From: Prochlorococcus sp. AG-311-J23
GTDB lineage: Bacteria; Cyanobacteriota; Cyanobacteriia; PCC-6307; Cyanobiaceae
Assembly (NCBI GenBank): GCA_003284375.1
Contig: QBVL01000018.1
Location: 1-33,728 of the forward strand
Direction of reading: 5' to 3'
Length of the DNA stretch: 33,728 nucleotides
Positions within the stretch are counted from its first letter, which is position 1, and each line of letters starts with the position of its first letter. The translations under genes were made by a program, and so were the position numbers. A model generated the notes under the pieces. That model was given only the letters and a program-made list of their open reading frames with translations. It was not told where the DNA came from and ran no database searches. Shown here one piece after another: positions 7,227 through 33,728 of this stretch.

Positions 7227-7314
7227 TACTTTTAAATTATAAAAAAGGATAACGAAGTTCTTTAAACACTAATCGATTAATTCCAAAAGATCTGTCAGAA
7301 TGAGTATGTCTATT

Positions 7315-7600
7315 TTCTAATGGACTAGGTGATTCACACCAGTATCTCGGACAGCGGTTCGATTCCGCTCAGCTCCATAAATGGGGCTGCAATGGCTTCG
7401 ACGGGGTATCAGGCGAGTGACTGAAGCCTGCTCGGTCAGAGCAAAACCATAACTGCTAACAACATCGTTAGTTTCTCCCGTCAAACAGCCCCTGTTGCTG
7501 CTTGATCTTTTAGGAGATGGGGTTAGGTCAGCCTTATCACCCAAGTGATCCGAGGAGCCTGTAAGGGCTCCACTCTAATTCCAGCAGAACGAGTCTCAAA
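7315..7600 (+). ncRNA. ssrA: Permuted two-piece tmRNA (ssrA)
   Basis: Rescues stalled ribosomes by acting as tRNA-Ala and then mRNA. The gene is circularly permuted: the 3' tRNA-like half comes first, with T-arm AGCGG-TTCGATT-CCGCT at 7354-7370 and acceptor strand CAGCTCC at 7370-7376 plus discriminator A. After a five-base linker the 5' half starts with GGGGCTG at 7383-7389, followed by the hallmark CAATGGCTTCGACGGGG. GGGGCTG pairs with CAGCTCC (one G-U), and GGGGTAT (7403-7409) pairs with GTATCTC (7342-7348) as helix P2. CCA is not encoded. A tag reading frame lies at 7455-7505 and a perfect hairpin GGAGCC/GGCTCC at 7554-7571. Outer ends are approximate. Permuted tmRNA is established for marine picocyanobacteria. 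Confidence 0.93.
7455..7505 (+). other. tmRNA proteolysis-tag reading frame
   Basis: GCT resume codon through TGA stop encodes ANNIVSFSRQTAPVAA, a 16-residue degradation tag ending in the Ala-Ala needed for recognition by ClpXP/ClpAP-type proteases. It closely matches the tag type of marine picocyanobacteria. Confidence 0.93.
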
Positions 7601-30251: not shown

Positions 30252-31751
30252 GTGGAAACAATAAATTTATATTGGTTCAAAAAAGACTTAAGAACATATG
30301 ATAATCAAGCTCTTAATGAAGCTCTTAAACTTGGTAATGTAATACCAATCTTTGTTGTTGAAACTGATCTCTGGAAACTTCCTGATCATTCATCAAGGCA
30401 ATGGGAATTTGTACGAGAATCTTTAATTGATTTAAATAAATCACTAAATGATATTGGTTTAAAATTAATCATAAGAGTTGGGAATATCGAAGATGTGATA
30501 AAAGAATTTATGGAAAGGTTTCACATTAAAGGTCTTTATAGCCACGAAGAAACCGGAAACGAATGGACATTTAAACGTGATGCAAGTCTAAGGAACTTTA
30601 CAAAAAACAAATGTATAAATTGGAATGAATACAGACAATTTGGCGTTTTTAGAGGTCTCAAAACTCGTAAAAAATGGTCTCAAAAATGGGAACAACATAT
30701 GTCACAGGAACTCATCAATAATCCCAAGAAAGTAAATCATTTTATTAACATTGCAAGTCATCGTTTACCCTCATCTAAGAGTCTAAATTTAAATGTAGAT
30801 AAATGTATTCATCGAATTCAGGGGGGAAGAAGTCAAGGGCTTAATAGACTGAATGAATTCCTGAAATACAAATTAGATAATTATCAATATTCTCTATCAA
30901 GTCCATTAAAAGCATTTGATGGGTGTTCTCGCTTATCACCTTACTTAACTTGGGGTTGTCTATCAATTAGAGAGGTAGTCCAAGCTATTAGAAAAACCAA
31001 GAAAAGTGGATCCAAAGCAATTGATTCAAGATTGCATTGGCATTGTCATTTTATTCAAAAGCTTGAATCAGAACCTGAATTAGAAAATCGTGAGTACCAC
31101 CCACAAATGAGTGGCATCAGAAATTCAAATACAATTTTTTTAGAAGCATGGAGTCAAGGTTTGACTGGAATACCTTTTATTGATGCATGTATGAGATCCC
31201 TAAATAATCATGGGTGGATTAATTTTCGAATGAGAGCAATGCTTATGTCGTTTGCTAGCTATCAATTATGGCTGCCATGGCAAGAGAGTGGTTTATGCCT
31301 GGCACGCAAATTTATTGACTACGAGCCAGGAATTCATTGGACACAATGCCAAATGCAATCGGGTACAACCGCAATTAACACTATTAGAATTTATAACCCA
31401 ATTAAACAAGGATATGATCATGACCCGCAGGGAGTATTTATTCGAGCTTGGGTAAAGGAATTACATGGTCTTCCAATCAAATTCATCCATGAACCATGGG
31501 AAATTGATCTATTTCGTCAAAATGATTCATCACTCGTTCTTGGAAAAAATTATCCATTACCTATAGTAGATCCTTTTGTTAGTGCAAAGACAGCACGGGC
31601 AAAGTTAAAAGAGATTAGAAATAAGCCTGGCTTCATTGACATCGCTAATAGTATCCTTGAGAAACATGGCTCAAGAAAAAGAAGAGCGTCAAAGTTGAAA
31701 AAGAACAAAAACAATCCCAAGTTACATGATCAGTTAACCCTCAATTTTTAA
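30252..31751 (+). CDS. DNA photolyase/cryptochrome family flavoprotein
   Basis: 499 residues. The N-terminal alpha/beta antenna-binding domain begins at YWFKKDLRTYDNQAL (residues 7-21), followed by the helical FAD-binding domain. The latter shows RLSPYLTWGCLSIREV, HWHCHFIQKLE, TGIPFIDACMRSLNNHGWIN, FRMRAMLMSFASYQLWLPW, and the DYEPGIHWTQCQMQSGT / YNPIKQGYDHDPQGVFIRAW block. These are standard FAD-pocket and Trp-chain regions. It either repairs UV pyrimidine dimers with blue light or serves as a blue-light sensor; sequence alone does not decide between CPD photolyase and cryptochrome-like members. The start is a GTG at 30252. A basic C-terminal tail (SRKRRASKLKKNKNN) may help bind DNA. It is the only large intact gene of the right third. 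Confidence 0.9.
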   Translation: METINLYWFKKDLRTYDNQALNEALKLGNVIPIFVVETDLWKLPDHSSRQWEFVRESLIDLNKSLNDIGLKLIIRVGNIEDVIKEFMERFHIKGLYSHEETGNEWTFKRDASLRNFTKNKCINWNEYRQFGVFRGLKTRKKWSQKWEQHMSQELINNPKKVNHFINIASHRLPSSKSLNLNVDKCIHRIQGGRSQGLNRLNEFLKYKLDNYQYSLSSPLKAFDGCSRLSPYLTWGCLSIREVVQAIRKTKKSGSKAIDSRLHWHCHFIQKLESEPELENREYHPQMSGIRNSNTIFLEAWSQGLTGIPFIDACMRSLNNHGWINFRMRAMLMSFASYQLWLPWQESGLCLARKFIDYEPGIHWTQCQMQSGTTAINTIRIYNPIKQGYDHDPQGVFIRAWVKELHGLPIKFIHEPWEIDLFRQNDSSLVLGKNYPLPIVDPFVSAKTARAKLKEIRNKPGFIDIANSILEKHGSRKRRASKLKKNKNNPKLHDQLTLNF

Positions 31752-33115: not shown

Positions 33116-33352
33116 ATTTATCTGTTCTAGCAACTATGGTGTTTATTATTGCATTGGTTATGTAATTATTGAATCAACCAAACAGTCTTATTGAAACGCT
33201 AAAACACCTTATAAACTTGATTTTTATGATTATGAAGTGAACAGTCTTTGAGTCCAACTACCACCGACTTTTTGGAACACTAATTTTTCCCAATATTTAA
33301 GAGATTATTTTTATAATTGCCATCTTGGTCCTGGATATATAAGAATAGGTAT

Positions 33353-33412
33353 ACAGAACAACTCCTCACACATAGTTCTGTGCCGAAAGAGCATCCAATA
33401 GGGTGCTTTTTT
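33353..33412 (+). ncRNA. yfr1: Small RNA Yfr1 candidate
   Basis: About 60 nt. A perfect 7-bp stem ACAGAAC/GTTCTGT (33353-33359, 33375-33381) encloses a 15-nt loop that contains the exact Yfr1 hallmark ACTCCTCACAC (33361-33371). A terminator hairpin AGCATCC/GGGTGCT (33390-33407) follows, with TTTTT after it. TAAGAAT at about 33340-33346 can serve as the -10 element. Yfr1 regulates mRNAs such as outer-membrane porin transcripts by base-pairing in picocyanobacteria (established for the family). The hallmark is usually in an unpaired stretch between two hairpins; here it is in a large loop, a slight variation. Confidence 0.85.
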
Positions 33413-33482
33413 AGTGACTGTGCCAATCTTAAAACCCACCTGCTAAGGGTTTATTACTATTCCAATTCAGGTAAATTCAAAA

Positions 33483-33577
33483 TGTGAGGAGTTGAGATCC
33501 TCCGCAGTGGAAACAAGGAAACACTTGCGCCTGATCTCACAAAAAACCGTCCATACAGAACTGGGCGGTTTTTTTGT
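33483..33577 (+). ncRNA. yfr2: Small RNA Yfr2-family (Cyano-1 motif)
   Basis: About 95 nt, 70 bp downstream of Yfr1 and in the same orientation. The core stem TGAGATC/GATCTCA (33493-33499, 33533-33539) and an inner stem CGCAGTG/CACTTGCG hold a loop carrying GGAAACA twice (33509-33515 and 33517-33523), the Yfr2-family hallmark. The terminator AACCGTCC/GGGCGGTT (33545-33552, 33563-33570) is followed by a T-run. The 5' end TGTGAGGAGTTG (33483-33494) complements Yfr1. A small hairpin GTGCCT/AGGCAC lies just after the T-run. Family targets are poorly defined. Confidence 0.88.
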
Positions 33578-33640: not shown

Positions 33641-33728
33641 ATGATTAAAAGGTACCCCTTGCTTCCTTTCCTTATCTTTGCTGCTTTCGTTGCAGGAACA
33701 GCAACAATTGGTCTCCCTGTATTTGCTT
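33641..33728 (+). CDS. Exported protein, N-terminus only
   Basis: An ATG-initiated frame running off the right edge. It begins MIKRYPLLPFLIFAAFVAGT and ATIGLPVFA: a basic start then a hydrophobic core with an Ala-rich end, typical of a Sec signal peptide with possible cleavage near the end of the visible part. The mature protein is outside the window, so no function is given. It lies 64 bp past the Yfr2 terminator on the same strand. Confidence 0.55.
   Translation, partial: MIKRYPLLPFLIFAAFVAGTATIGLPVFA

Follow-up and report, generated by a model that had tools for sequence, protein, structure and literature searches.

The 3' end of the window (the whole stretch of 33,728 nucleotides that was analysed) very probably carries a tandem yfr10-yfr2 locus of Prochlorococcus, whose two RNAs would act in trans as a regulator and its sponge. 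The clade is most likely low-light-I (LLI), to which we assigned the window's genome through its kinship with a genome of the same genus. The following features were read on the forward strand.

33336-33341, + strand: TATATA, candidate -10 element for the upstream RNA, read from the letters
near 33349, + strand: putative start of transcription of the upstream RNA, a guess from the sequence
33347-33412, + strand: Yfr10-type small RNA, 73.5 bits with the genus model R1, whose training set includes this copy
33352-33382, + strand: predicted Yfr10-type hairpin, 8-bp stem (33352-33359/33375-33382) and loop (33360-33374) with AACTCCTCAC
33359-33370, + strand: CAACTCCTCACA, complement of the Yfr2 5' end, read from the letters
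33385-33412, + strand: Yfr10-type intrinsic terminator, predicted from a 12-bp stem with a U run
33419-33427, + strand: TGTGCCAAT, conserved element 5' of Yfr2 and candidate regulator site, from word conservation in the genus
33478-33542, + strand: Yfr2 (Rfam Cyano-1, RF01701), 61.9 bits at a cut-off of 41, model positions 1-69 of 69
33483-33494, + strand: TGTGAGGAGTTG, Yfr2 5' element and partner of 33359-33370, read from the letters
33507-33524, + strand: GTGGAAACAAGGAAACAC, conserved loop motif of Yfr2, from the Cyano-1 alignment
33541-33574, + strand: predicted Yfr2 terminator

Elsewhere in the window, a permuted cyanobacterial tmRNA gene occupies 7292-7570 (RF01851, 300.6 bits) and a DNA photolyase gene lies upstream of the two RNAs at 30252-31751 (Pfam FAD_binding_7 and DNA_photolyase).

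The identity of 33478-33542 as Yfr2 is certain, and both the 5' UGUGAGGAG tail, which is predicted to be free, and the GGAAACAAGGAAAC loop are present in it according to the Cyano-1 alignment and folding. The upstream RNA had been called Yfr1 in the original prediction, a label that proved wrong, because this RNA holds its seed in a hairpin loop and adjoins Yfr2, and in relatives the Yfr1 locus is a separate one. Yfr1 is described as carrying its seed single-stranded between two stems at a locus that mostly lies between guaB and trxA (PMC6778093). The window RNA shares the ultraconserved seed ACUCCUCACAC with Yfr1, but its motif is predicted to lie in a hairpin loop 5' of Yfr2 and not single-stranded between two stem-loops, and its neighbours are Yfr2 and the photolyase gene, not guaB and trxA. 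It has the features of Yfr10 instead, namely the ACUCCUCACAC motif in a loop atop a stem, as judged by folding and pair counts, and a gene placed directly 5' of a Yfr2-family gene on the same strand. With the Rfam model of Yfr10 (RF02362, cut-off 43) the window copy scored 23.5 bits, and two genus copies situated directly 5' of Yfr2 scored 45.9 (G030) and 44.0 bits (G021); the sequence and structure of Yfr10 have been described as poorly conserved (Lambrecht 2019, PMC6778093). A separate Yfr1-like copy, having the motif once in the context GTAGTGAGAGCC...CTCTCACACTCCTCACAC, was found in all six single-contig genomes of the genus, and the two Yfr1-like loci that we translated (L259 and L270) are flanked by guaB-like and trxA-like (thioredoxin-like) open reading frames, named by eye. 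In the window's genome, which is 77% complete, ACTCCTCACAC did not occur outside the Yfr10 and Yfr2 genes, but a search for the IMPDH family returned two weak matches, the better of which reads by eye as another protein, so that the guaB region may be missing from the assembly, and we claim no absence of Yfr1.

The 12 bases of perfect complementarity first noticed here were confirmed: CAACTCCTCACA (33359-33370) matches the reverse complement of TGTGAGGAGTTG (33483-33494) at every position, and the run is bounded by A/A and C/A mismatches. In agreement with the original prediction, the matching segment of the upstream RNA is predicted to lie mostly in the loop, with only C33359 outside it, closing the hairpin stem. 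When both RNAs were shuffled with dinucleotide frequencies kept, none of 1000 pairs reached a perfect run of 12 (the maximum was 11, in two of them), so the run is beyond chance for the window pair taken alone. Joint folding, which had been suggested as a check, gave -10.4 kcal/mol net, a value that 28 of 200 shuffles matched and that is thus only modestly better than shuffled sequences; the plain duplex energy, which the terminators dominate, was ordinary and uninformative, 267 of 1000 shuffles being as good. The predicted probability of being unpaired was 0.97-1.0 for the upstream loop (33360-33370) and 0.98-0.99 for the Yfr2 tail (33483-33490), while the ends of the 12-mer fall in stems of their own (C33359, 0.01; U33493, 0.50, and G33494, 0.01, the latter two in the Yfr2 stem), and about 10 nucleotides of the 12-mer are predicted to be freely available. 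In the predicted dimer an 11-bp helix joins 33360-33370 to 33483-33493 and the upstream hairpin is opened, at the cost to Yfr2 of a single outer-stem pair, six of the seven staying in place.

The tandem arrangement is widespread in the window's genus, where a Cyano-1 search yielded 130 Yfr2 copies in 38 of 41 genomes. Up to 400 nucleotides upstream were read for all of them, and after one copy with 34 upstream nucleotides (L117) had been dropped, 129 could be scored: 96 had a Yfr10-type RNA upstream and 33 did not (hereafter solo). The tandem set combines 86 copies in which the exact word CTCCTCAC occurs no more than 400 nucleotides away and 10 variants that scored at least 50 bits with R1; the copies with weaker R1 matches, L139 (34.0 bits) and L042 (32.2 bits), went into the solo set. 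The Yfr10-type RNA lies at 98-153 nucleotides in 90 of the 96 and at 311-361 nucleotides in the other six. The 86 occurrences of the exact word upstream on the same strand, out of 130 copies, compare with none on the opposite strand, one for the reversed word and none in the 150 nucleotides downstream. Viewed from the other side, Yfr2 starts at most 400 nucleotides downstream of 90 of the 102 R1 matches of at least 60 bits, and the remaining 12 have no Yfr2 within that distance; solo Yfr10-type matches include the best of all (G018:C19:15011-15088, 103.1 bits) and G020:C5:23507-23583. The pairing core GTGAGGAG is intact in 117 of the 129 genus copies of Yfr2. From three to six Yfr2 copies are present in each of the six single-contig genomes, and in the window's genome all four Yfr2 copies have a Yfr10-type RNA upstream of them, a fifth Cyano-1 match of 18.8 bits having been left out. 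Two of its loci depart from the pattern: on contig C15 the Yfr10 seed is intact but the 5' end of its Yfr2 neighbour has decayed (duplex energy -3.9 kcal/mol), and at 22 kb on contig C10 Yfr10 has a variant seed. At another genus locus (L041, G037:C6:34972) the Yfr10 body appears by eye to be missing, so that the promoter and the first stem letters GCAGAAC are left with the Yfr2 promoter region directly next to them. A pattern scan of named genomes, using a pattern built from the window's genus, returned 56 stretches; apart from one in a Verrucomicrobia bin, all of them (55) belong to Prochlorococcus. Three Yfr10 matches in other parts of the family sample (L167, L168 and L171) had no Yfr2 within 500 nucleotides.

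The fold of the Yfr10-type RNA is conserved as well. For the training of R1 we took 70 distinct upstream copies selected for the exact word CTCCTCAC, which is therefore invariant in this set by selection; three copies in which no T run was found and those more than 160 nucleotides away were excluded. Over the 70 sequences the hairpin stem pairs in 98.0% of cells, with two pairs changed on both sides, and the terminator stem in 98.8%, with four such pairs. Overall, 98.5% of cells were paired as against 44-58% for slid partners, and pairs that changed on both sides number six, above the shuffle mean of 2.9, none of 500 shuffles being as high.

Yfr2 seems to have a regulated promoter of its own, since 107 of 129 copies (77/96 tandem, 30/33 solo) have a word of the TGTGNCART type at -59/-60 relative to the point where the Yfr2 model begins. 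A GntR regulator is reported to bind yfr2 promoters that have the CGRE1 motif (PMC6778093), and it is no more than a guess that the TGTGCCAAT-type word is such a CGRE1/GntR site. One common stretch lies upstream of 21 of the 33 solo Yfr2 copies and of 0 of the 96 tandem ones, hence comparisons of tandem with solo copies are not comparisons between independent loci. At the one locus tested, the element upstream of solo Yfr2 was a glutamine-II riboswitch (L028:1265-1327, - strand; 67.1 bits, cut-off 33), which ruled out the tail of a 6S RNA as the identity of this stretch. Since the riboswitch is on the opposite strand, the 21 solo Yfr2 genes would be oriented divergently from a riboswitch-controlled gene, which hints at a link of solo Yfr2 with nitrogen.

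Comparison with the literature, proposed at the outset, showed that the adjacency of such RNAs to Yfr2 is already published and that mutual pairing was proposed from it (Steglich 2008, PMC2518516). In MED4, Yfr10, Yfr12 and Yfr18 directly adjoin Yfr2, Yfr4 and Yfr5, and a 270-nucleotide Yfr10-Yfr2 precursor was detected (PMC2518516), so read-through between Yfr10 and Yfr2 is possible. Later work on MED4 RNAs reported reciprocal pull-down of Yfr2 with Yfr1 and Yfr10 and vice versa, relief of Yfr1 repression by Yfr2 in an E. coli reporter, prevention by Yfr2 of the binding of ppa mRNA by Yfr1 and Yfr10, mutual pairing stronger than pairing with ppa mRNA, and protection from RNase E by pairing (Lambrecht 2019, PMC6778093). 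Thus, the suggestion that Yfr2 could act as a sponge named the right kind of mechanism, one already published (PMC2518516, PMC6778093); the name Yfr1 for the window RNA was mistaken. The spread of the regulator-and-sponge pair in the window's genus is the new part, in contrast to the published adjacency and pairing; we found no account of Yfr10-Yfr2 pairs in low-light strains in the literature searched, a scope that leaves aside the 2018 work on GntR and the Yfr2 promoter.

For the high-light group we used the genus g18, which we took to be that group from a genome (G187) with Yfr10 at the published MED4 coordinates 346661-346738. Of 23 inspected loci there, 20 had the tandem layout and the other three were without the motif by a crude scan; the seed motif and the loop motif of Yfr2 are 162-193 nucleotides apart in the 20. 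The MED4 pairs Yfr10-Yfr2, Yfr12-Yfr4 and Yfr18-Yfr5 resemble the window in having a seed RNA as the immediate same-strand neighbour of a Yfr2-family RNA and a loop complementary to a 5' tail. They differ in that the Yfr2 match is interrupted: the Yfr2 start reads GTGTGTAGGAG in 16 and GTGTGAAGGAG in four of the 20 high-light loci, with an interrupted match in all 20, whereas the window's genus mostly keeps GTGAGGAG without interruption. For the GTGTGTAGGAG form, a bulged C and one mismatch were allowed in the published pairing (PMC2518516). Spacing and stem letters are also unlike those of the window's genus, in which, as a further difference, a downstream Yfr10-like RNA is found. Beyond cyanobacteria, enterobacterial small RNA sponges, such as SroC with GcvB, titrate a regulatory RNA through its seed; the window partners differ from these in being adjacent, multi-copy genes, and we know of no sequence shared between such sponges and Yfr10 or Yfr2.

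We propose that the locus comprises two small RNA genes on the same strand, which end in separate terminators and probably start from separate promoters. The Yfr10-type RNA would present the conserved cyanobacterial seed ACUCCUCAC in its hairpin loop and modulate mRNAs by pairing, and the free 5' tail of Yfr2, being the complement of this seed, would bind Yfr10 (and Yfr1). A rise in Yfr2 would then draw the seed-bearing RNAs off their mRNAs, and pairing with Yfr10 or Yfr1 may in turn protect Yfr2 from RNase E. The interaction would take place in trans among several copies with a common seed, so that adjacency probably contributes only co-inheritance and closeness of synthesis. For the window strain, we infer binding, relief of repression and protection from RNase E by analogy with the MED4 RNAs, as studied in vitro and in E. 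coli, while the sequence, the tandem arrangement and the predicted structures and accessibility were observed at the window locus itself.

The original prediction went further and suggested an RNA switch in cis, in which the upstream RNA, by binding the 5' end of Yfr2, would shift Yfr2 from one internal fold to another. The window Yfr2 has both hexamers that this would need, TGTGAG and CTCACA, as do 39 of the 130 copies of the genus, but one or both are missing in the other 91; moreover, the alternative UGUGAG/CUCACA pairing had a predicted probability of 0.002-0.005 in a fold 3.7 kcal/mol worse. Nor did folding favour remodelling of Yfr2 by the upstream RNA, given that the 5' element is predicted to be single-stranded already and that nearly all outer pairs persist in the dimer, and we regard such a switch as barely credible. 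The idea of two adjacent genes tuned to each other in cis fared no better. Neighbours had a mean duplex energy of -19.38 kcal/mol as against -19.31 for permuted partners, and permutations were as good as the true neighbours in 928 of 5000 trials over the genus and in 845 of 5000 within genomes; among Yfr2 copies, 69 of the 96 in tandem and 26 of the 33 solo ones keep GTGAGGAGTTG intact (p = 0.50). The pairing is thus conserved no further than the seed imposes, a result that counts against a private pair and not against pairing in trans, although the comparison cannot prove pairing, because the seed is almost invariant and was itself used, in part, to find the copies. A candidate compensatory change, a GTACTCC loop with GGAGTAG in Yfr2 (L066 and L049), was rejected since L022 has the same loop and keeps GGAGTTG, and GGAGTAG occurs also beside ordinary loops or without a loop. 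We likewise make no claim of a bias of seed variants toward changes that preserve G-U pairs, which was seen by eye only and which AT-biased mutation could explain. Adjacency adds nothing detectable to the match, and the sequence comparison suggests that the interaction is best viewed as one in trans through a shared seed.

Two further explanations concern what keeps the locus as it is. The complementarity might be a by-product, maintained because each RNA has partners of its own, Yfr10 with mRNAs and Yfr2 with antisense RNAs and mRNAs. The equal retention of the Yfr2 5' element with and without a Yfr10 neighbour would fit this, as would the many mRNAs pulled down in MED4, 302 with Yfr2, 206 with Yfr1 and 253 with Yfr10 (PMC6778093). 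However, the solo copies are not independent, as 21 of 33 share one upstream context, and their conservation is expected of a sponge too because Yfr1, which could also pair with Yfr2, is present in all six single-contig genomes. As the mutual pairing in MED4 also beats pairing with ppa mRNA and works in the reporter (PMC6778093), we consider a by-product quite improbable. Somewhat less improbable, yet still unlikely, is a duplicating cassette whose copies decay and have little function at many loci. The several Yfr2 copies of each single-contig genome, the degenerate Yfr2 on C15 and Yfr10 seed at 22 kb on C10, and the apparent deletion of the Yfr10 body next to its promoter at L041 (judged by eye) are consistent with such decay; against it, the pairing core survives in 117 of 129 copies and the Yfr10 stems and terminators still pair, with changes on both sides. 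The trans regulator-and-sponge pair is our preferred reading.

A second contact between the two RNAs is only a lead. In the window, ACAGAACT in the Yfr2 terminator (33555-33562) is complementary to AGTTCTGT in the Yfr10-type RNA (33374-33381), so that the terminator word CAGAAC might pair with the Yfr10 stem arm; this contact was absent from the predicted dimer. CAGAAC occurs in 55 of 130 genus Yfr2 terminators, and in 49 of 96 tandem versus 5 of 33 solo ones (Fisher p = 0.0004), copies that are related by duplication. It was found in 0 of 20 high-light loci, where CAGAAA, the letters of the high-light arm itself, occurs in five, placed by eye before the terminator and not in its loop.

Downstream of Yfr2, R1 also matched a second Yfr10-like RNA in the genus, here called 'D', an example of which is L004:1780-1870 (G000:C15:38192-38282 in the window's genome), with similar ones in L021, L035, L040 and L043. 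It has an altered seed, AACTCCTTACC, a loop that reads AACUCCUUACC in most copies and by eye resembles the anti-Shine-Dalgarno sequence, and a very conserved terminator, GGGACTCAAGGTCGCTGAAGCAGCAGGGTCCC. A model of 'D' (R2) was built from 22 training sequences and used to search 300 family genomes at E up to 1e-4; as no pair had changed on both sides among the 22, support for the fold comes from conservation of the sequence. The draw contained 24 genomes of the window's genus, and 23 of these held all 50 matches of at least 50 bits; the 276 other family genomes gave matches in two genomes only, of at most 41.8 bits. Within 1.2 kb downstream of a same-strand Yfr2 lay 32 of the 50, 23 of these at 206-218 nucleotides; among the 83 Yfr2 copies in the genus genomes searched with R2, 32 are followed by one (tandem 24/58, solo 8/25). 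No Rfam family exceeded its cut-off at 'D' in L035 or L028, the two places tried (Yfr10 in L028, 27.5 bits, cut-off 43). Between Yfr2 and 'D', 19 of 22 distinct loci have an open reading frame of 32-38 residues with an MIF or MNF start (for example MIFPPPQVVFGLLLLSTAVVLIFDIRYNPFGNSEDDI), its tail shifted in some loci; in L035, L040, L043 and others it has about 37 residues and one hydrophobic stretch (MIFPPPQVVFGLLLLS...). In the window a small open reading frame, MIKRYPLLPFLIFAAFVAGTATIGLPVFA, begins at 33641-33727 and is truncated by the contig end. A similar locus in G007 (L018), which has Yfr10, the spacing, Yfr2 and the start of the small reading frame in common with the window, reads MIKKYPFLPFFIFTAFVAGTATIGLPVFA and then a stop in place of that frame, and it has 'D' 684 nucleotides after Yfr2; the window stops at 33728, short of the expected position. 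By eye, 'D' could still pair with Yfr2 via G-U wobble. We tentatively consider a repeated cassette of Yfr10-type RNA, Yfr2, an open reading frame for a tiny hydrophobic peptide and 'D', in which Yfr2 would be a sponge between two seed RNAs of different target range and the Yfr2 terminator loop ACAGAACU would possibly take the opened Yfr10 stem arm.

In summary, the regulator-and-sponge arrangement of high-light Prochlorococcus would be common in another clade too, where its pairing core is uninterrupted. The copies within the window's genome, intact, with a broken sponge (C15) or with a changed seed (22 kb on C10), are natural alleles that would let the published model be tested, and the solo Yfr2 and solo Yfr10 copies of its relatives may serve as further ones.
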